NCBI GenBank assembly: GCA_002898215.1
Contig: BEIF01000004.1
Span: 62,001-126,000 of the forward strand
Source: a bacterium HR29
Lineage (GTDB): Bacteria; Chloroflexota; Dehalococcoidia; Tepidiformales; Tepidiformaceae
Length of the DNA stretch: 64,000 nt
Direction: 5' to 3'
How positions within the stretch are numbered: position 1 is the first letter of the stretch; each line of letters starts with the position of its first letter. Positions 11,626 through 58,557 of this stretch are shown here, piece by piece. A program made the position numbers and the translations under genes. The notes under the pieces are model-generated. The model was not told where the DNA came from. It did no database searches and worked only from the letters and a program-made list of their open reading frames with translations.

Positions 11626-11710
11626 GCTGACCTCCCGCGCGGAAGAGTGGCGGTGGCCTGCGCCGGGACCTGGGGGAGCCGAAGTGGGCGAGAGCGAGCA
11701 TTCGCGCGCA

Positions 11711-11787
11711 ATCCCTCCGCCGGCATTACCCGGATCAGGTTCGACGGGTCTTTCTCAGGCCGGCCGAACGCCGACCACCCCGTGCGC
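11711..11787 (-). promoter_or_regulatory. TPP riboswitch (THI element)
   Basis: Read on the minus strand, the element shows the conserved CTGAGA box, then ACCCG, GAACCTGATCCGGGTAAT and GCCGGCGGAGGGA in the standard order, with a GGGGTGG 5' arm. This is the TPP aptamer. It precedes thiD by 85 nt. No intrinsic terminator is evident between aptamer and gene; a GCGCGCG stretch just after the aptamer could pair with CGCGCGG next to the thiD ribosome site, which would favour translational control (inference). Confidence 0.95.
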
Positions 11788-11853
11788 TCGCCTCCATCGT
11801 GGTTTGCGGAAGGCAGGGCGTCAAGCTCGAAGCCGAGGCACGGCACGGCCGTC

Positions 11854-48883: not shown

Positions 48884-50446
48884 TCAGTGCCGGAAGTGCC
48901 GGACGCCGGTGAAGACCATCGCCACCCCGTACTGGTCGCAGCAGTCGATGGCGTCCTGGTCGCGGAGGCTACCCCCGGGCTGGATGATCGCCGTGATGCC
49001 GGCCCGACAGGCGCGTTCCACCGCATCGTTCCACGCGAAGGGGAAGAAGGCATCGCTGGCGAGCACGGCCCCCTTCGCCGCTTCGCCCGCCTTCTCGAGG
49101 GCGAGCTCGACGCTCTTCAGGCGGTTCGGCTGGCCCGAGCCCATCCCCAGCAGCCGCGCGTCCTTCGCCACCGTGATGGCGTTGCTCTTCACGTGCTTGA
49201 CGCACCGCCAGGCGAAGGCGAGGTCCCGGCGCTCCTCGTCGGTTGGGGCGCGCTTCGTCACCACCGTCCAGGTCACGTCGTCGGGGCCGAGCTCATCGGC
49301 GTCCTGGAGCAGCCAGCCTCCGCCCACCTGCCGCAAGGAGCGCGTCCCGCGCGCCAAAGGCGGCGCCTCCAGGATGCGCAGGTCGCGCGACTTCCCCTTC
49401 AGCACGGCCAGCCCTTCGGGGGTGTATCCGGGCGCGACCACGATCTCGTAGAACATCCGCGTCTGGCCATCGAGGGGGCTGCGGAACTCGCGGATCTCCC
49501 GCGCCAGACGTTCGTCCACCGGCCGGTTGAAGGCGACGATGCCGCCGAACGCGCTCACGGGGTCGGCGGCCACGGCGAGCCGGTACGCCTCGACCAGGTC
49601 GCCTCGGGAGGCCGCTCCGCACGGGTTCGTGTGCTTCACGATGACGCAGGAGGGCTCGGGGAACTCGTTCACCGCATTCCAGGCCGCGTCGGCATCGAGG
49701 AAGTTGTTGTACGACATCTCCTTGCCGTGATGCTGGACGGCGAGGGCGATGCCGCCCCGGCCCGCGGCAGCGAGCGAGCGGTCGCGGTAGAAGGCGGCGC
49801 GCTGATGGGGGTTCTCGCCGTAGCGCAACGGCTGAACCAGCTCGAGCGGTAGCGTGAGCGATGGCGGAAAGCCTTCGTCCGGCCAGAGCCACTCCGCGAC
49901 GGCGCTGTCGTAGGCCGAAACGTGGGCGAACGCCTTCCAGGCCAGCCGCCGACGGAGGGCGTCGTCGGCGCGGCCCTCGCGGAGCGCTTCGAGGAGCGGT
50001 TCGTAGTCGTCCGGGTCGCACACGACGATGACGTCACGGTGGTTCTTCGCGGCCGCCCGAAGGAGCGTCGGACCGCCGATGTCGATCTGTTCGATGGCCT
50101 CGTCGAAGGTGACCCCGGGACGGGAGACGGTGGCCACGAAGGGGTAGAGGTTGCACGCCACCAGGTCGATGGTGGCGATGCCGTGGCGGTCGAGCGCTTC
50201 GAGGTGGGCCACACGGTCGCGACGGGCGAGGATGCCGGCGTGGATGCGCGGGTGGAGCGTCTTCACCCGCCCGTCGAGCATTTCGGGGAAGCCGGTGACG
50301 TCCTCGACCTTCTGGACGCGCAGGCCAGCGGCGCGGAGGGCTTCGAACGTGCCGCCGGTGGAGACCAGTTCCCAGCCGAGCTCGGCCAGGCCGCGGGCGA
50401 ACGCTTCGATGCCGCGCTTGTCGTAGACGGTGAGCAGCGCACGCAT
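48884..50446 (-). CDS. purH: Bifunctional AICAR transformylase/IMP cyclohydrolase PurH
   Basis: Last two steps of IMP synthesis, 520 residues. The N-terminal cyclohydrolase (MGS-like) domain begins ALLTVYDKRGIEAFARGLAE and has LHPRIHAGILARRD. The C-terminal transformylase has RYGENPHQRAAFY, FLDADAAWN, KHTNPCGAA, SDAFFPF and the final FTGVRHFRH. All are intact. The ATG at 50446 follows GGGAGG with 10-nt spacing. It is monocistronic, convergent with the gene at 48098. No purine riboswitch is seen upstream. Confidence 0.97.
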   Translation of the reverse strand: MRALLTVYDKRGIEAFARGLAELGWELVSTGGTFEALRAAGLRVQKVEDVTGFPEMLDGRVKTLHPRIHAGILARRDRVAHLEALDRHGIATIDLVACNLYPFVATVSRPGVTFDEAIEQIDIGGPTLLRAAAKNHRDVIVVCDPDDYEPLLEALREGRADDALRRRLAWKAFAHVSAYDSAVAEWLWPDEGFPPSLTLPLELVQPLRYGENPHQRAAFYRDRSLAAAGRGGIALAVQHHGKEMSYNNFLDADAAWNAVNEFPEPSCVIVKHTNPCGAASRGDLVEAYRLAVAADPVSAFGGIVAFNRPVDERLAREIREFRSPLDGQTRMFYEIVVAPGYTPEGLAVLKGKSRDLRILEAPPLARGTRSLRQVGGGWLLQDADELGPDDVTWTVVTKRAPTDEERRDLAFAWRCVKHVKSNAITVAKDARLLGMGSGQPNRLKSVELALEKAGEAAKGAVLASDAFFPFAWNDAVERACRAGITAIIQPGGSLRDQDAIDCCDQYGVAMVFTGVRHFRH

Positions 50447-50640
50447 GGGCGATGACCTCCCGAGCTTGGTATCACGGCCCAGGCGGGCGGCCATCCCGAG
50501 GTCCGGGCTCCCCCGCGGTGCTCCGCGCGACGCCAGTCACCCGGACGGCCGCAGGATACCAGATGGAGGGCCCGGCCGGCGATTGCCAGCCTCCTCGGCG
50601 AGGCGTATACCGTGCGTATCTCGAATCGGAGGCGAACGCG

Positions 50641-51531: not shown

Positions 51532-52629
51532 TCAACCCGCAGGCACGAACGCCCGAACGCGCTCGACCAGTTCGTGGACGCGGCCTGGGTCGCCGCCGTC
51601 GACTTCGCCCGGAAGCCCTTCGCGCCACCGTTCGGGGAAGGCGGCAGCCCCATGGAGCGCGCCGACGGCCGCCCCGACGATGGCCGCCACCGTGTCGTTG
51701 TCGCGGGTGTCGTTTACGGCTCGGACCACCGCCTCCTCGGGATCGTCGGCGTACCACATGAGGATGTAGAGCACGGAGGGCACGGTCTCGAGGAGGTAGG
51801 CGCCCGAGTACCACCCGTTGCACGCCTCGAGGACCGGCTTCCGCTGCCGCCACGCGGATGGCACCGCCCATTCGACGAACCGGGAGAGCGGTCCTTCGAA
51901 TCGGTCCACGAACGGGCCGCCACGGGGCCGATACGACCGGGTCTCGAGCCCGGCGGCCGTGCTCACGAACCGCTCGACCCACCACATAGGGTCGGGCGTC
52001 CGCGCGCACCGGAGCAGCTCCCACAGGATATCGACGAAGGCGATGCAGGAGGCGGTGGACGCCGGGTCCCGGTGGGTTAGGTGCGCGAGCACCGCCGTAT
52101 CGCACCACAGGTCCGCGCTCGGGCGGCGTAGGTGGAGGAGGAGGGCCGGGGCGATGCGCATCAGCGCCCCGTTTCCCGCGGAAGGTTCGCCAACTTCGTA
52201 CCAGGGCACGCCCTGCTGGTACCGCTGGAGCGCGGCCCGGACGGCCGAGCCGATTCCCCTGATTCGGCGCCCCGCGAACCGGCGCAGCAGGCTGTCGGGG
52301 TCCAGCTGCCCGTCCTCAACGAACCCCTCGACCGTCCGGAACGTGAGCTGGGCGTCGTCCGACGGGCGTCCGCGGGGGACGATGCTATCCTGCGGGATGG
52401 CGTAGTCGCGGATTTCGCCGAATCGCCGTCGCCGCTCGGCGGGGAGCATCGATTCGGAAGGGTTCCCGAGCGCGTCGCCGATGGCGACACCCAGCAGCAT
52501 GCCCGCGACGCGGTCGAACAGGAGGTTGGGAGGCAGCGGTTCGGGTACCCGGGCGAGCACGGCTCCCTCGCCGAGCTCGAGGTAGCCGCGGCTCCGCAGC
52601 CATTCGAACCGGCGTCGTTGGGCGGACAC
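51532..52629 (-). CDS. ADP-ribosylglycohydrolase family protein
   Basis: DraG/ARH-type hydrolase of 365 residues that would remove ADP-ribose from proteins or small molecules with two Mg ions. The metal-binding motifs are GVAIGDALGNPSE near residue 50, RPSDDAQLTF, and the C-terminal NDTRDNDTVAAIVGAAVGALHG. An N-terminal extension of about 35 residues is basic. The GTG at 52629 follows AGAGGGG. It is the last gene downstream of the B12-type ECF operon (73 bp gap), which may be coincidental. Confidence 0.88.
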   Translation of the reverse strand: MSAQRRRFEWLRSRGYLELGEGAVLARVPEPLPPNLLFDRVAGMLLGVAIGDALGNPSESMLPAERRRRFGEIRDYAIPQDSIVPRGRPSDDAQLTFRTVEGFVEDGQLDPDSLLRRFAGRRIRGIGSAVRAALQRYQQGVPWYEVGEPSAGNGALMRIAPALLLHLRRPSADLWCDTAVLAHLTHRDPASTASCIAFVDILWELLRCARTPDPMWWVERFVSTAAGLETRSYRPRGGPFVDRFEGPLSRFVEWAVPSAWRQRKPVLEACNGWYSGAYLLETVPSVLYILMWYADDPEEAVVRAVNDTRDNDTVAAIVGAAVGALHGAAAFPERWREGLPGEVDGGDPGRVHELVERVRAFVPAG

Positions 52630-52702
52630 GGAAACCCCTCTGTCGTCAGGTACCACTGTTTGCAATGTCGGCGTGGCCGCCCCTCCCCCAAAGCGGAGCG
52701 GC

Positions 52703-53539
52703 CTATTCCGCCGGCTGAAGCCGCCAGCGGAATCGCGCGTGGAAGCGCAACAACGCCGGCAACAGGGCCCAGCCGGCGGCTGCCAGGGCGGCGACGTTCG
52801 CGAAGCTGCGGAAGAGGTCCCACCCCAGGCTGGTGAGCAGGTAGAAGTTCCAGTAGCGGCGGATGGTCTCGGCGAACCCGAGCCCAGGCTCGTAGGAGAT
52901 GTCCGGACCGCCGACGAAGAAGGGCCAGAACCAGAGGTTGATGATGGCGCCGTAGAGGAGCCCCCACACGAAGCCGAGGGCCAGGAGCGCAGCGTAGTGG
53001 CCCCGCATGCCCAGTCCCAGCCGTTCGACGAGGGGCCGCGCAATCCCCACGCTGAGGCCCATCCAGGCCGACGCGAACATCTGGAAGGGAAGCCAGGGAC
53101 CGACGCCGGCGGTCACGAGCGCCGACAGGAAGAACGAAAAGGCGCCCAGAAGGAACCCCATCCGCGGGCCGAACACATAGGCGCCCATGATGACGAGGAA
53201 GAAGTACAGGTTCGCGCCCGCGGGCAGGGTGAACGTCCGCAGCACGGCTGCGAGGGCCGCGAGCACCCCCAGCGCCGCCAGCGATTTGCTGTCGAGACCG
53301 CCGTTGGTGAGCTCGCCCACCAACAGAGCGAGAGCGAGGGCCGTGACTGCGGCGATGAGGATCGGCCCGTCGCCGCGGTGCATGTACCAGTCGGCATCCG
53401 GCCGCTGCACGTCGGCGAGGAGGAAAGGATAGACGTAGGCCGCCAGCCCCACCAGGTTGAGGAGCACGAAGCTCACGGGAGCCAGCCACCGTGCGGGCAC
53501 GGCAGCGGGCCGAGGGATGACCGCCTCAACCGTCGCCAC
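52703..53539 (-). CDS. ECF transporter S component (putative cobalamin-specific)
   Basis: Membrane substrate-binding (S) subunit of 278 residues with about seven predicted helices. The pattern FFLVIMGAYVFGPRMGFLLGAFSFFLSALVTAGVGPWLPFQ (residues about 115-155, shown in part: GAYVFGPRMGFLLGAF) is typical of EcfS proteins, and WMGLSVGIARPL follows. The start is a GTG after AAGGAGG, overlapping the DUF4430 gene by 14 bp. Cobalamin specificity is inferred from the operon and its riboswitch, not from this protein alone. Confidence 0.83.
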   Translation of the reverse strand: MATVEAVIPRPAAVPARWLAPVSFVLLNLVGLAAYVYPFLLADVQRPDADWYMHRGDGPILIAAVTALALALLVGELTNGGLDSKSLAALGVLAALAAVLRTFTLPAGANLYFFLVIMGAYVFGPRMGFLLGAFSFFLSALVTAGVGPWLPFQMFASAWMGLSVGIARPLVERLGLGMRGHYAALLALGFVWGLLYGAIINLWFWPFFVGGPDISYEPGLGFAETIRRYWNFYLLTSLGWDLFRSFANVAALAAAGWALLPALLRFHARFRWRLQPAE

Positions 53540-54365
53540 GTCGGGACCTCCTTGCAAGGGCGGCAACCGCAATGGCGGCGGCGAGGGCACCGGCGAGGCC
53601 GCCGAATGCGGCGAGGCGGCCCACCGGCAGGCGGTCGGAGCCGGCAGGGGCGCGCTCCTCGGCGGGAGCGAACGTCGGAGAGGGCAGCTCGGGAGCGCCT
53701 GCATGCTCCCCCGCGGTCGGTGAGGCCGGAAGCGGCGTGAAACCCCCGGCCAGCGTCGGCTCCGGCGAGGGCGACTCCTCCCCGGAAGCCGGCGACGCGG
53801 CCGGGCTGGGCGATACGGCACCGGCTCCGGTGGTAGGCGGCGGAGCCGGCGAGCCGGAGGCCGGAGGCGGGCTCCCCGTGGGGGACGGTCCGGCGCCACC
53901 GCAGACGTCCGCGAAGGTGAGCGGAGGAGGCTTCGGCGCGCTCCCGGCCGTGCCCTTCCCCCAACGCCACCCGTGCAGGTCGCCGTGCCGCGCAACCTGC
54001 GATTGGAATCCAAGGGAGGAGTACACCCAGCCGCCGTCGTTCCGCTGGACGAAGTAGGCCCAGTAGGTGCAGTCGCTCAGGTCCTCGCACTGGCAGTGGC
54101 AGCTGGCGAAGTTACCTTGATGGCGGCAGCCGACGCCGTCGATCGCGCAGACCATGCCCGAAAACTGGTTGACGTCGAGCCCGGCGCGCTCCAGCAGTTC
54201 CTGCCCGGTGATCCGGTCCCCCTCGAATGCCACGCAGTACGTCTCGACCCGCCCATCGCCGTAATCGATGACGAGCCCGGCCTCGCCGTCCGCCAGCGCC
54301 GCCAGGGGAAGCGCTGCGACGCACGCGACCGCGACGGGAAGGACGGCGCGGAACAGGCGTCTCAT
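53526..54365 (-). CDS. Membrane-anchored transcobalamin-C-terminal-like (DUF4430) protein
   Basis: Exported protein of 279 residues: signal peptide (1-25), a cysteine-rich DUF4430-type domain (about 28-125), a Pro/Ser/Thr/Ala linker (about 143-245), a C-terminal membrane helix (about 246-268) and RRSRRGDG. Landmarks are YGDGRVETYCVAFEGDRITG, TGQELLERAGL, GVGC, a CHCQC cluster and WAYFVQRNDGGWVYSSLG. The DUF4430 family is related to the C-terminal domain of transcobalamin/intrinsic factor. Position in an ECF operon under a cobalamin riboswitch implies B12 or corrinoid binding on the outer face of the membrane (inference). ATGA overlap with ecfA. Confidence 0.85.
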   Translation of the reverse strand: MRRLFRAVLPVAVACVAALPLAALADGEAGLVIDYGDGRVETYCVAFEGDRITGQELLERAGLDVNQFSGMVCAIDGVGCRHQGNFASCHCQCEDLSDCTYWAYFVQRNDGGWVYSSLGFQSQVARHGDLHGWRWGKGTAGSAPKPPPLTFADVCGGAGPSPTGSPPPASGSPAPPPTTGAGAVSPSPAASPASGEESPSPEPTLAGGFTPLPASPTAGEHAGAPELPSPTFAPAEERAPAGSDRLPVGRLAAFGGLAGALAAAIAVAALARRSRRGDG

Positions 54366-55933
54366 GCGGCCGCCACCTCCTCGGGCAGGAGCGCCCCCGG
54401 GATGATCTGGGCCACGGCCGTGGGATACGGCCCTGTACTGCCGAACGCCTCGCGAGCCGGCCCGTCGAAGACGACGCGCCCACCATCGAGAACGATGGCC
54501 CGTGCGGCCCACCGCGCGGCGAACTCGACGTCGTGCGTGGCCACGATCGCCGCGCCGCCCCGGGAGGCGTGGTCGCGAAGGACTCCGGCGAGCCACTCCT
54601 TCGTCGCGTGGTCCGCGCCGCGGGTGGGTTCGTCCAACAGCCAGACGGGCGGTTCGTGGACGAGCATGACCGCGAGCGCCGCGCGCTGCTGTTGACCGAC
54701 GCTCAGGTCGTACGGATGCCGGCCGAGGAGGCCATCGAGGCGCCACCGGGCAGCGACGTGTTCGACGTGGCCAACCGGAAGCCCGCGCGCCTCGAGGCTG
54801 GCTCGCAGCTCCTCGGCCAGCGTGCGCCGGGAGAGGACGTAGGCAGGATTCTGAGGCAGAAGAGCGGCGAACGCCGAACGCTCGCGCACGCCGGCAGGAG
54901 CGGGCGCCCCGCGGAATCGGATCTCGCCGGATTCGAGGCGCGCCAGGCCGACGAGGCTCCGAAGCAGCGTCGTCTTGCCCGCCCCGTTCCGACCCAACAG
55001 AGCGACGAGCTCTCCTTCGCGCAGGCCAAGCGAAACCCCCGCGAGGGCGACGCACTCCCCGTACGAGACGGTCACTCCCGCAGCCCGGAGAAGCTCCGCG
55101 CCGGGAGAAGGAGCCTCCTTCGCCGGCACGAGGGCAACGCTCCGGCCGGCAAGGGCGGCCCGAGCCTCCTCCAGCGTGAGTGGAGGTGGGTAGAGACCCA
55201 AGCGGATCCCCAGGCGCGGCAGCGCAGGCGCCCCAGGCAGGCTGCCGGCCTCGCGAGGCCCGAGGCTCACGACGCGGCCGCCATCCACGTGGAGGACGCG
55301 CGAGGCGATGGCTTGAATGCGCTCCCGCCGATGTTCGGCGATGAGCACCGTGAGGCCCGACCGCTGGTGAAGGTCGAGCACTGCCTCGACGAACTGCTCC
55401 GCTCCTTCCGGGTCGAGCTGGGAGGTCGGCTCGTCGAGGGCCAGCAGCTGTGGCTGGAGAGCCAGCACCGCCGCCAGCGCCACCCGCTGCCGTTCGCCCC
55501 CGGATAGCGTCGAGAGGCGCCGGACACGGAGATGGCCGATCCCGAGCATCTCTAGCACCGCTTCGATCCGCCGGCGCGCCTCGTCGCCCGGGACCGCGTG
55601 AAGCTCCAACCCGAAGGCGATCTCCTCTTCGACGGTCTCGGCGATGGCCTGGGCCTCCGGTTCCTGGAACACCATCCCGACGCGCGTGGCCATCGTGCGG
55701 GTCGGCGTGCGGGCAGGGTCGAGACCGCAGACTCGCAGCCTTCCCTGAAGGGTGCCGCCGTGGAACTGCGGGACGAGGCCGTTCAGGGTGCGAAGGAGGG
55801 TCGACTTTCCCCCGCCGGAGGGACCGGCGACGAGCACGAGCTCGCCCGCTTCGAGGGAGAGGGTGACGTCCGCGAGTGCGGGGACCGCACCGCCGGGGTA
55901 GGTATAGGTTACGCGCTCCCAGCGGGCGATCAT
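54362..55933 (-). CDS. ECF transporter ATPase, two fused ABC domains
   Basis: Energy-coupling ATPase of 523 residues with two ABC domains in one chain, replacing separate EcfA1 and EcfA2. Domain 1: Walker A GPSGGGKST (about 36-44), signature LSGGERQRVALAAVLAL, Walker B LLALDEPTSQLDPEG. Domain 2: Walker A GRNGAGKTT (about 315-323), signature LSVGQQQRAALAVML, Walker B VWLLDEPTRGAD. Both domains look catalytically intact. The start overlaps the ecfT stop (ATGA). Longer minus-strand open frames over this region are spurious. Confidence 0.92.
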   Translation of the reverse strand: MIARWERVTYTYPGGAVPALADVTLSLEAGELVLVAGPSGGGKSTLLRTLNGLVPQFHGGTLQGRLRVCGLDPARTPTRTMATRVGMVFQEPEAQAIAETVEEEIAFGLELHAVPGDEARRRIEAVLEMLGIGHLRVRRLSTLSGGERQRVALAAVLALQPQLLALDEPTSQLDPEGAEQFVEAVLDLHQRSGLTVLIAEHRRERIQAIASRVLHVDGGRVVSLGPREAGSLPGAPALPRLGIRLGLYPPPLTLEEARAALAGRSVALVPAKEAPSPGAELLRAAGVTVSYGECVALAGVSLGLREGELVALLGRNGAGKTTLLRSLVGLARLESGEIRFRGAPAPAGVRERSAFAALLPQNPAYVLSRRTLAEELRASLEARGLPVGHVEHVAARWRLDGLLGRHPYDLSVGQQQRAALAVMLVHEPPVWLLDEPTRGADHATKEWLAGVLRDHASRGGAAIVATHDVEFAARWAARAIVLDGGRVVFDGPAREAFGSTGPYPTAVAQIIPGALLPEEVAAA

Positions 55934-57015
55934 GGGCGACCCACCTCGGCCACGCCGGCCGCGGGCAGGCCCCGGGGCGCCGGCTTCCAGCGGCCTGCGA
56001 GGAAGAGGGACGGCCACACCACGCTCAGGACGAACCCAGCCTCCAACGGCGCGAACGGAGGCCAGGCCAGCCCGGCGAAGGGGGAGTAGCCGAGCTCGAG
56101 CCAGCCCGGAGCGCGCCCGAAGATGGCCAGCGCCGCGATGGCGGCGGCGAAGGCGACAGCGGCGCGCTCCGACCCGGTCAGGCGCTCGGGGCGGAGGCGG
56201 TTCCCCACGCGTCGACGAGAGGCGGCCGTGAGCCACGCTCCGAAGAGCACGACCGCAACGCCGCCCAGGAGGGCACCGACCCACCGGGCATCGCCGAGGT
56301 AGAGCCAACACAAGCCCCCGGCGAGGCCGAGGGGCGCCGAAAGGAGGGCCGCGGCGCGCGCCCATGCAGGCGGCGAAGGGGGTGGCGCGAATCCCCGCGC
56401 TTCCATCGCCTCGGCGAGACGGAGGGAGCGCTCGAGCCCACCGAGGACGACGGGCACGGCAAGCCCCGGGAGCTGGCGCAGCCCCGTCCCGCCTCCCCGC
56501 AGCGCCTGTGCTTCGCGGATGCGGCGGGAATCCTCGATAGTCGCCGGCAGGAGCGTCAAGCCGATGGTGGCGACGAGCGCAGCATGGAAGAGCGCCGCTG
56601 GCGCCGCCCGCAGGAGTCGCTGTGGGGTGACCGCCGCGTTGACAGTCGCGAAGGCGAGGACGATCGCGAGGATCGCCAGCCCGCGGATGGCCGCGTTCAC
56701 GAGCTGCTCGGCGGTGACGGGGCCACCGAGCCGCAGCCCTCCCAGCCATTCGGGCACCCGCAGGCTGGGGACGCGGAAGAGCTCGTGCTCACCGTAGCTC
56801 CCGTTGATGACGGCCACGAGCGCGGCGAAGAGCAGGACGCTGGCGCCGAAGAACGCCATCACCCGGAGGCCGGCGGCCCCGGCGGCGTCCTTCGGCGCCA
56901 GCACCGCCACGAGGATGACGCCGAGGACGACGACGGCCAGGTAGAAGGGGTTGGTGACGGTGAGGGCCACCGCCATCACCATCGCCGCCCACGCCAACCA
57001 GGCCGTCGTCGCCAT
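55930..57015 (-). CDS. ecfT: ECF transporter transmembrane component EcfT
   Basis: Scaffold subunit of 361 residues that couples the ATPase to the S component. The two cytoplasmic coupling motifs are visible as EAQALRGGG and EAMEARGF in the middle of the protein. About eight predicted helices, longer than a typical EcfT (about 265), with extra C-terminal helices. The N-terminus is MATTAWLAWAAMVMAVALT. The start lies 4 bp after the preceding gene. Confidence 0.88.
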   Translation of the reverse strand: MATTAWLAWAAMVMAVALTVTNPFYLAVVVLGVILVAVLAPKDAAGAAGLRVMAFFGASVLLFAALVAVINGSYGEHELFRVPSLRVPEWLGGLRLGGPVTAEQLVNAAIRGLAILAIVLAFATVNAAVTPQRLLRAAPAALFHAALVATIGLTLLPATIEDSRRIREAQALRGGGTGLRQLPGLAVPVVLGGLERSLRLAEAMEARGFAPPPSPPAWARAAALLSAPLGLAGGLCWLYLGDARWVGALLGGVAVVLFGAWLTAASRRRVGNRLRPERLTGSERAAVAFAAAIAALAIFGRAPGWLELGYSPFAGLAWPPFAPLEAGFVLSVVWPSLFLAGRWKPAPRGLPAAGVAEVGRP

Positions 57016-57019
57016 CGCC

Positions 57020-58126
57020 TCAGCTCCTTCGGCCCCGTGCCGCCCCGGCAGCCGCCCCCGCCGTCAACAAGGCCGCGCCGGCAAGGACCGCTGCCCACGT
57101 CCAGCCGCTGCCGCTCGAGGAGGCCGACCCGGTGCCCGTCTTCGCCACCGCAGGAGTGGGGGTCCGTGTGGCGGCGGGGGTAGCGGTCGAGGTGGGAGTC
57201 GCCGTCGGAGTGGGCGTCTCCTGGACGAGGGGAGTAAACGGCGCGTTCAGGAACGTCCGCCCCATGAGCGCCGGCACGACTTGGTTGGTGGCGAAGGCAG
57301 GGTCGTAGCCGACGAAGGAGCCGTCAGCCTGCTGCTGGGAGAGCAGGAACTGGATCGGGTTTCCGCCGGGCTTCGTGTAGGTAGGGCCTTCCGGGTCCTC
57401 GCCCGCGGCAATGAGCGCCTGCACAACGAACGCCGTGGAGTTGACGTTCGAGGCGGCCGGGTCGAAGCCCCAGCCGCCGTCGTTCGCCTGGGAGGCGCGC
57501 AGGTAACCGAGCGCCTCCTGGACGTCGGGGTCGGAGACGGGAAGGCCGGCAGCCAGGAGCGCCTGGAGGACGATGGCGGTGCTGTCGGGGTCGCTCGAAC
57601 CGCCGAACCCCCACCCACCGTCGGCCACCTGCGAGCTTCGCAGGGCCGCCACGGCCGCGGACGGCACAGGGTCGCCGGCGGCGACGAGGCCGATGATGGC
57701 CAGCGCCTGGTTGAAGTCATCGCTCGCGTACCGACCGGTGCCGGCATCGTACGCGCCGCGGACGACGGCCGTGAGGTCGGTGCCATCGACGTTCCGCGGG
57801 TCCAGGCCGAGGGCGAGGGCGCCGAGGATGAACTTCGCCGCCAGGCCGGGGCGGTTCACCGCCGCAGCGTTGGCGCGGAGGAAGTCGGCCGGCGTCTTTC
57901 CGTCCTTCACGAAGGTATTCGGGTCGATACCGACGGAGCGGATGGCGAAGATGGCGTCCATCGTTTGGCCGGGCCCGAAGCCGCCGAAGCCGCCATCCGA
58001 CTGCTGGGTCGTGCGGATGAATTCGACGCCGCGGAGGGCCGCATCCCGCGCGGGGAGTGCCGCCGCAGCCGCGGCAACGAGAGCTGCCGCGAGCGTAAGA
58101 CCGATAGCCGACAATCGGATGAACAT
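57020..58126 (-). CDS. Membrane-anchored prenyltransferase/squalene-oxidase-repeat protein, transcobalamin-alpha-like
   Basis: Exported protein of 368 residues: signal peptide (1-22), an all-helical domain with repeats of the prenyltransferase/squalene-cyclase barrel type (QQSDGGFGGFG at 41, QVADGGWGFGGSSDPDSTA at 165, QANDGGWGFDPAASNVNSTA at 212, QQADGSFVGYD at 264), a Thr/Pro linker (about 302-330), a membrane helix (about 345-363) and basic RRS end. No catalytic DxDD/QW terpene cyclase site is seen. The (alpha/alpha) barrel is also the fold of the transcobalamin N-terminal domain. First gene of the operon below a cobalamin riboswitch and terminator; ATG after GAGGAGGG. Confidence 0.85.
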   Translation of the reverse strand: MFIRLSAIGLTLAAALVAAAAAALPARDAALRGVEFIRTTQQSDGGFGGFGPGQTMDAIFAIRSVGIDPNTFVKDGKTPADFLRANAAAVNRPGLAAKFILGALALGLDPRNVDGTDLTAVVRGAYDAGTGRYASDDFNQALAIIGLVAAGDPVPSAAVAALRSSQVADGGWGFGGSSDPDSTAIVLQALLAAGLPVSDPDVQEALGYLRASQANDGGWGFDPAASNVNSTAFVVQALIAAGEDPEGPTYTKPGGNPIQFLLSQQQADGSFVGYDPAFATNQVVPALMGRTFLNAPFTPLVQETPTPTATPTSTATPAATRTPTPAVAKTGTGSASSSGSGWTWAAVLAGAALLTAGAAAGAARGRRS

Positions 58127-58223
58127 ATCCCTCCTCGGTGACGTGGAATGGCCACCAGGGCGTGGCAAGAGCGGGGCCACGCGGGGTGGTTGTACCGGAC
58201 TGGTCAGGAGAGCGGGGAATACG

Positions 58224-58249
58224 AAGAAACCCGCCCTCGCCGGCGGGTT
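58224..58249 (-). terminator. Attenuator terminator below the cobalamin riboswitch
   Basis: On the minus strand, AACCCGCC (58249-58242) pairs with GGCGGGTT (58235-58228) around GGCGAG, followed by TCTTCG. It lies between the aptamer and the first ORF, so it is the likely transcription-termination platform of the riboswitch. Confidence 0.75.
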
Positions 58250-58284
58250 ACGTCACACGTGTACACATGTGCCGGTCCCCTTTG

Positions 58285-58445
58285 ACGCGAAGGTTACCGA
58301 GCGGGCGGCGAGGCAGGGTTTTCTGGCTTCTCCCGAAGCGGGAGTTACAGTTGCGCGACAGCCCCGGACTTTCACCGGAGTTGCCCCTGGTCCCCGAGGG
58401 GACACGCACAGCCGAACGCGGCTGCGGTCTCGGCCGCCGTATGCG
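58285..58445 (-). promoter_or_regulatory. Cobalamin (B12) riboswitch
   Basis: On the minus strand the conserved core is present in order: CCGGTGAAAGTCCGG, CTGTCGCGCAACTGTAA, and the B12-box end AGCCAGAAAACCCTGCC. The exact 5' and 3' limits are approximate. It precedes the ECF/transcobalamin-like operon by about 160 nt. It ties that operon to cobalamin supply. The stretch 58127-58557 contains only this element, its terminator and, on the plus strand, the start region of the enoyl-CoA hydratase. Confidence 0.93.
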
Positions 58446-58557
58446 GTTGTCGCCGGCACTATGCCGGACCGCGGAGGTACCGTCAACCCCTGGGCAGGTG
58501 ATGGCCCCACCTTCGCCGGCGTACGATGGCCCCGATGCTTCCGCGAAGGAGGGCCTC

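Follow-up and report, generated by a model that had tools for sequence, protein, structure and literature searches.

A putative cobalamin ECF importer operon in Chloroflexota encoding a split, transcobalamin-like protein pair

The window analysed here (the whole 64,000-nucleotide stretch of contig BEIF01000004.1 from bacterium HR29) raises the question of why an operon for an ECF-type importer should also encode two exported, membrane-anchored proteins. ECF importers usually have no need for an extracytoplasmic binding protein, which counts against reading such proteins as a receptor; those for vitamins have been described with the S component as sole substrate binder, a description that a two-part extracellular receptor would alter. 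We nevertheless consider it likely (probability roughly 0.8) that this operon specifies a CbrT-type ECF importer for cobalamin, supplied by a receptor that resembles transcobalamin but consists of two chains. Computation supports this reading through the order of the genes, the riboswitch, the folds, the kinship of the S component, the auxotrophy, the conservation of the pair and its natural fusions; that the pair binds the ligand, closes around it and hands it over, and that the terminator acts as a switch, is inferred. On the minus strand, from 58422 to 52703, a cobalamin riboswitch is followed by a barrel gene (SQC), EcfT, a fused EcfAA', a small gene (T) and the S component, with the following features:

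58458..58486, minus strand: promoter-like hexamers TTGACG-17-CATAGT (consensus scan, 9/12 matches; weak evidence)
58299..58422, minus strand: cobalamin riboswitch aptamer (RF00174, 32.2 bits against a gathering threshold of 31.5)
58228..58249, minus strand: intrinsic-terminator-like hairpin (scan and RNA fold)
57020..58126, minus strand: SQC, exported, C-terminally anchored alpha/alpha-barrel protein, proposed counterpart of the transcobalamin alpha domain (Pfam, AF2)
55930..57015, minus strand: EcfT (PF02361 CbiQ 6.1e-11, EARG motif)
54362..55933, minus strand: fused EcfA-EcfA' ATPase (PF00005 1.5e-57, ECF_ATPase 5.6e-84)
53526..54365, minus strand: T, exported, C-terminally anchored small protein, proposed counterpart of the transcobalamin beta domain (fold, SCO2322 family)
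52703..53539, minus strand: S component, CbrT type (PF12822 2.7e-12, family profile to 6FNP)

All five minus-strand genes of the initial annotation were found in the order it gave, and they abut or overlap: SQC and EcfT are 4 nt apart, EcfT overlaps EcfA by 4 nt (ATGA) and EcfA overlaps T by 4 nt, while the 25 nt between T and EcfS become a 14-nt overlap if EcfS begins at GTG 53539, the better start, with AAGGAGG just upstream. The outer proteins had been described there as exported and anchored by way of linkers, and both indeed have an N-terminal export segment, a Pro/Thr-rich linker and a C-terminal hydrophobic anchor. None of the 21 loci searched contained a relative of the downstream ADP-ribosylglycohydrolase gene, which was left out of the operon reading.

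The importer itself fulfils the criteria for an ECF transporter: Pfam matches over cut-off identify EcfT, both ATPase domains and the S component. EcfT has several hydrophobic segments, and in the fused ATPase, which matches PF00005 over two stretches, the Walker A and signature motifs each occur twice. A family profile of the S component has 6FNP (ECF-CbrT) as its top PDB match (E 1.2e-14), although the single sequence found nothing in the PDB by phmmer. ATP-dependent transport of both Cbl and cobinamide is on record for ECF-CbrT (PMC5997447). The S component is of CbrT type by homology, and its transport of cobalamin is an inference from homology, riboswitch and auxotrophy.

The riboswitch match in the window is over threshold but weak taken alone; it is strengthened by the orthologous operons, which have a cobalamin riboswitch at the same place (34–111 bits), so that this element too stands as first proposed. 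A riboswitch precedes the operon in 10/10 complete loci of the class and in 17 of the 19 testable loci of the phylum, and the genome has no cobalamin riboswitch besides the operon's own. According to RNA folding, the 3' arm of the terminator-like hairpin has an alternative partner in the 3' end of the aptamer, with which it could form an antiterminator, and from this we infer switching by terminator and antiterminator. The genome encodes MetH and methylmalonyl-CoA mutase components, with a B12-binding domain beside MeaB, and CbiC, CbiD and CobS are absent. Vitamin B12 is required by this bacterium, which does not appear able to produce its own.

The barrel protein SQC matches Pfam SQHop_cyclase (7.9e-11) and, weakly, the eukaryotic cobalamin-binding family PF01122 (Cobalamin_bind; 0.0036, 16.8 bits against a curated cut-off of 25), which two of its orthologues exceed (L025 and L026, with 26.1 and 27.1 bits); a match to the SCO2321 family (NCBIfam NF053823, 1.9e-24) remains below the curated cut-off. 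Structures were predicted from the window, L002 and L003 sequences only. The AF2 model of SQC is an alpha/alpha toroid (pLDDT 91.5), and the annotation's alpha/alpha barrel, whose fold had been set as a refutation test, survives accordingly. In the VIA comparison this model aligns with the transcobalamin (TC), intrinsic factor (IF) and haptocorrin (HC) barrels at Z 20–22 over 243–257 residues. Its nearest structures are, however, not transcobalamin but squalene-hopene and drimenyl-diphosphate cyclases (Z 25–26), the alpha/alpha barrel being a fold common to the transcobalamin family and the cyclases.

The case for T is less direct. The DUF4430 domain that the initial annotation placed here is not seen by Pfam (PF14478 matched neither T nor any of 34 relatives), and phmmer searches of the PDB with T, as with the single S component, gave chance matches or none, such that profiles were required. 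The domain is nonetheless supported as a DUF4430-fold beta domain by position, by profile–profile comparison and by fold, the last from a model of moderate confidence, and by these alone. A family profile of 35 T sequences aligned with genuine DUF4430 proteins at E 6.7e-6 (hhalign, probability 85), whereas a smaller profile of 12 sequences gave only a weak match (probability 12, E 0.0025); T also matches the SCO2322 family (NCBIfam NF040672, 1.1e-6), below its curated cut-off. The template-free AF2 model reached pLDDT 69.1, the other four models 35–49, with residues 50–75 unresolved. In a PDB search with this predicted model, HC, TC and IF beta domains occupied ranks 1–9 and 11–15 (Z 7.5–8.2), as the proposed superposition on the transcobalamin C-terminal domain would have it; rank 10 went to 3u7z (Z 7.8), a small protein of bacterial origin that bears the title 'putative metal binding', and the unrelated entry that came next had Z 6.0.

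A genome survey of the kind proposed at the outset bore out a strong co-occurrence of the pair with ECF genes and B12 riboswitches, and added natural fusions. Across Chloroflexota, T is present in 47 of 49 SQC-bearing genomes and SQC lies within 6 kb of 46 of the 48 T genes, the two being usually adjacent and behind B12 riboswitches. In relative L114 they form one chain (barrel–barrel–T–TM), and in L090 the order of the fused protein is T–barrel–barrel. Some relatives (L110–L113 and L115) have T with ECF genes but no barrel, which indicates that T can do without its partner in places; the barrel-less T is lipoprotein-like and sits in an ECF operon behind a cobalamin riboswitch in 5/5 loci examined. 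Some operons carry CobS/CobC, and a BtuC-type permease lies beside the T/SQC pair in L100 and L117. Cobalamin specificity is strengthened by these genes in their respective operons, together with the CbrT-type S component and the B12 auxotrophy.

We hypothesize that complete cobalamin would be taken up by this dedicated (group I-like) ECF importer, and that B12 would shut the operon off through the transcription-terminating riboswitch. SQC and T would be the alpha-domain and beta-domain halves of a split, membrane-tethered transcobalamin, each kept near the membrane by its flexible Pro/Thr linker. One half, probably T, might bind cobalamin first, after which the halves could close around the ligand; the loaded pair might then dock at the CbrT-like S component, or close to it, and pass the ligand on, and the S component would join EcfT and EcfAA', with ATP driving release inside. 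Binding, closure and hand-over remain inferences, there being no binding or transport data. When the alpha and beta domains of human TC are expressed separately, they come together only once Cbl is added (PMC5599065).

Other readings of the same operon are conceivable. It is possible, if doubtful, that the importer handles cobalamin but that only T binds the corrinoid, the barrel being a scaffold or cell-surface partner that does not close over the ligand: the barrel-less T genes in cobalamin-riboswitch ECF operons fit such a role, as do the binding of Cbl by human TC beta alone (PMC5599065) and the greater structural closeness of the barrel to cyclases. Yet the barrel, where present, is almost always adjacent or fused to T, and some barrels exceed the cut-off of the eukaryotic cobalamin-binding Pfam family. 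That SQC is instead an enzyme, such as a secreted terpene cyclase, that lies in the operon by chance is hard to credit even with cyclases as its closest structures and a partial DxD motif, as the class II DxDD catalytic motif is not intact in the window (DPDSTA) and is degenerate in its relatives (mostly DTNTTA or DPDTTA, with an intact DVDDTA in 1/39). SQC is moreover a single barrel with an export signal and C-terminal anchor, strictly linked to T and to B12 riboswitches, and we reject a terpene cyclase on the degenerate motif, export and linkage.

The substrate might also be cobalt, a lower-ligand base or some other B12 precursor, given that genes for cobalt and precursor uptake are likewise under B12 riboswitch control. 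This seems very unlikely: the match of the S component is to CbrT, not to an S component for cobalt, transcobalamin-type folds are encoded alongside and, with CbiC, CbiD and CobS missing, cobalt, cobinamide or free base could not be converted to cobalamin by known routes. We reject it on the missing genes and the CbrT match.

The receptor reading invites comparison with several known systems. Animal transcobalamin, haptocorrin and intrinsic factor combine a PF01122 barrel with a PF14478 beta domain, and like the window have both folds co-encoded, exported and linked to cobalamin; their order in one chain, barrel then beta domain, is that of L114. In the window, by contrast, the two are separate membrane-anchored chains adjoining an importer, sequence identity to the animal proteins is about 10–18% in structural alignments, and the beta half, unlike theirs, is rich in Cys and goes undetected by Pfam. 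ECF-CbrT of Lactobacillus delbrueckii shares EcfT, two ATPase domains and a related S component, but is a group II system without outside binding proteins, whereas the window has a dedicated module with fused EcfA/EcfA' and two added exported receptor proteins. The BtuCDF cobalamin ABC importer does the same job, extracytoplasmic capture followed by ATP-driven import, but its binding protein, the class III SBP BtuF, has an unrelated fold and its transporter belongs to another class. Metal ECF systems likewise have additional exported or membrane components (CbiN, NikN, NikK/NikL), but these are metal-specific and their folds are unrelated to those of the pair.

These likenesses suggest that the capture device of the animal carriers also exists in bacteria, in two pieces. 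We lean, by no wide measure, towards the broader proposal that bacteria have a two-chain transcobalamin whose tethered halves come together on cobalamin and supply an ECF transporter, and that the animal carriers share ancestry with this module, of which fused, single-chain forms would still exist. The animal B12 carriers would thereby gain a bacterial context, because both folds co-occur under B12 control across Chloroflexota, sometimes in one chain. The separated halves would be a natural system for cobalamin-driven domain closure, so far studied with an artificially split human protein, and the gene set could serve to predict which uncultured bacteria depend on B12. No description of the SQC/T pair was found in the open literature on DUF4430, SCO2321-2325, CblT/CblS, CbrU/CbrV and riboswitch-plus-cyclase (subscription journals were outside the scope). 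The SEED role name 'additional lipoprotein component of predicted cobalamin ECF transporter' may point to an earlier prediction of part of this system. Finally, the SCO2321 and SCO2322 families, matched by SQC and T respectively, have no assigned function, and their consecutive locus tags suggest that the two are also neighbours in Streptomyces coelicolor.

The operon lies entirely on the minus strand and comprises five genes behind a promoter-like site and a cobalamin riboswitch.

Control elements and genes of the operon in transcription order (window coordinates)
58486-58458, minus strand, promoter-like site
58422-58299, minus strand, cobalamin riboswitch, 32.2 bits (cut-off 31.5 bits)
58249-58228, minus strand, terminator-like hairpin between riboswitch and SQC
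58126-57020, minus strand, SQC gene (barrel protein), first of five genes
57015-55930, minus strand, EcfT gene, second
55933-54362, minus strand, fused EcfAA' gene, third
54365-53526, minus strand, T gene (small protein), fourth
53539-52703, minus strand, EcfS gene; best start GTG 53539, with AAGGAGG immediately 5'

The aptamer is separated from SQC by +172 nt, while the genes follow at +4 (SQC-EcfT), -4 (EcfT-EcfAA') and -4 (EcfAA'-T), and T overlaps EcfS by 14 nt if the latter starts at GTG 53539. In the folded leader RNA, the terminator's 3' arm can pair with the 3' end of the aptamer, as is usual in OFF switches; that this leader switches off through its terminator is our inference, with a fold z-score of only -1.7. 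Both SQC and T have an export segment at the N-terminus and, beyond a Pro/Thr/Ala linker, one hydrophobic anchor at the C-terminus.

The alpha/alpha barrel proposed for SQC in the initial annotation is borne out by its AF2 model, an alpha/alpha toroid (pLDDT 91.5) that matches squalene-hopene cyclase at Z 26 and intrinsic factor, transcobalamin and haptocorrin at Z 20-22. Pfam recognises squalene-cyclase repeats in SQC, which also matches PF01122, the eukaryotic cobalamin-binding family, weakly; two orthologues (L025, L026) exceed that family's 25-bit cut-off at 26.1 and 27.1 bits. The class II cyclase DxDD motif is degenerate (DPDSTA in SQC, mostly DTNTTA or DPDTTA across a 39-member alignment), which argues against SQC being a cyclase enzyme. 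A barrel protein at a related locus (L039:5321-7987) keeps DVDDTA intact; its barrel is followed by a region resembling MgtE_N and by a CARDB domain.

The T model was built by AF2 from three sequences without templates and reaches moderate confidence (69.1 for the best of five, 35-49 for the rest; residues 50-75 poor). The kind of structure it matches is nevertheless unambiguous: in the VIA list, C-terminal domains of haptocorrin, transcobalamin and intrinsic factor take ranks 1-9 and 11-15 (Z 7.5-8.2). The small bacterial protein 3u7z stands at rank 10 (Z 7.8), the next entry falls to Z 6.0, and Foldseek agrees. The DUF4430 domain earlier assigned to T is supported by this fold and by profile kinship (hhalign E 6.7e-6, probability 85, for a wider T profile against nine PF14478-positive domains from the same bacterial class), but not by Pfam, which found DUF4430 in none of 35 T-family members. 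The profile of those PF14478-positive proteins has the haptocorrin beta domain as its first, weak PDB match (E 0.085). SQC and T also match NCBIfam SCO2321 and SCO2322, both below cut-off; the consecutive numbering of these locus tags points to neighbouring genes in Streptomyces.

EcfT, both ATPase halves and the S component all exceed Pfam cut-offs, and an S-component profile (n=15) searched against the whole PDB first matches 6FNP (E 1.2e-14), that is ECF-CbrT, which carries out ATP-driven transport of cobalamin and cobinamide (PMC5997447). The host genome (2.34 Mb) encodes MetH, and a B12-binding domain adjoins MeaB, a methylmalonyl-CoA mutase setting. CbiC, CbiD and CobS were not found in this 97% complete assembly, with positive controls, so that by known routes neither is the corrin ring made nor cobinamide completed, and complete cobalamin should therefore be the cargo. 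The operon's cobalamin riboswitch is the only one in the genome; one FecCD-type importer of unknown substrate is also present, with no cobalamin riboswitch found nearby.

The co-occurrence survey supports the pairing. Among Chloroflexota, T occurs in 60 of 251 genomes, including 47 of the 49 with strong SQC matches (E below 1e-45; Fisher p about 2e-36, uncorrected for kinship), SQC lies within 6 kb of T for 46 of 48 T genes, and a Cobalamin or AdoCbl riboswitch precedes the operon in 17 of 19 loci whose upstream region is covered. In Dehalococcoidia, T occurs in 11 of 148 genomes, and all ten complete operons seen contain SQC, T, EcfT, EcfA and EcfS with a cobalamin riboswitch upstream of SQC. 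PF14478 occurs in seven other Dehalococcoidia genomes: at two loci (L036, L039) such a protein takes T's position in an ECF operon with a barrel gene, and at two (L041, L042) it adjoins a cobalamin riboswitch. At L041:8508-9755 (genome G114) the riboswitch is followed by the DUF4430 protein and a DUF6580 membrane protein, and no ECF module was found nearby; the DUF6580 protein could act on its own as a corrinoid transporter or S component. At L042:7857-12567 the DUF4430 gene lies just 5' of the riboswitch, downstream of which come a BtuF-like binding protein, a FecCD permease and an ABC ATPase.

What the variant loci share is corrinoid handling, not transporter type. L114, downstream of a cobalamin riboswitch and adjoining EcfT/EcfA, encodes a single 828-residue chain with two barrels (43-328, 338-578), a T domain (614-730) that also matches the DUF4430 profile, and a C-terminal hydrophobic segment; L090 is fused in the order T-barrel-barrel. 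Where T accompanies ECF genes without SQC, a cobalamin riboswitch lies upstream in 5/5 loci (L110-L113, L115); at these loci, which have no barrel gene, the N-terminus of T resembles that of a lipoprotein. CobS (L086:5634-6997), or CobS with a CobC-like alpha-ribazole phosphatase (L088:5498-6877), lies between T and EcfT, building cobalamin completion into the import operon. In L100, and similarly by sequence in L117, a BtuC-like permease and an ABC ATPase replace ECF.

When its alpha and beta domains are expressed separately, human transcobalamin assembles only upon cobalamin addition, and the beta domain binds cobalamin by itself (PMC5599065); a natural two-chain, membrane-tethered version could thus capture ligand. 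We infer, without binding data, that tethered SQC and T would close around cobalamin, probably with T as first binder, and might hand it to the CbrT-like S component. ECF-CbrT, DUF4430 within the animal carriers, and the SCO2321/2322 families are each already known separately; in the open literature (subscription literature lay outside the search) we found neither the bacterial pair described as a split transcobalamin nor a link to ECF import. A SEED role name may cover part of the system.

Around the operon, an ADP-ribosylglycohydrolase gene (51532-53043, minus strand; PF03747, 4.7e-58) overlaps the end of EcfS; no counterpart turned up at the related loci examined. A ZTP riboswitch (50470-50550, minus strand) lies at the start of purH (48884-50494); another lies directly 3' of the ECF operon in L030, so the neighbourhood is partly conserved. 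A TPP riboswitch (66.7 bits) is found at 11694-11792, also on the minus strand.
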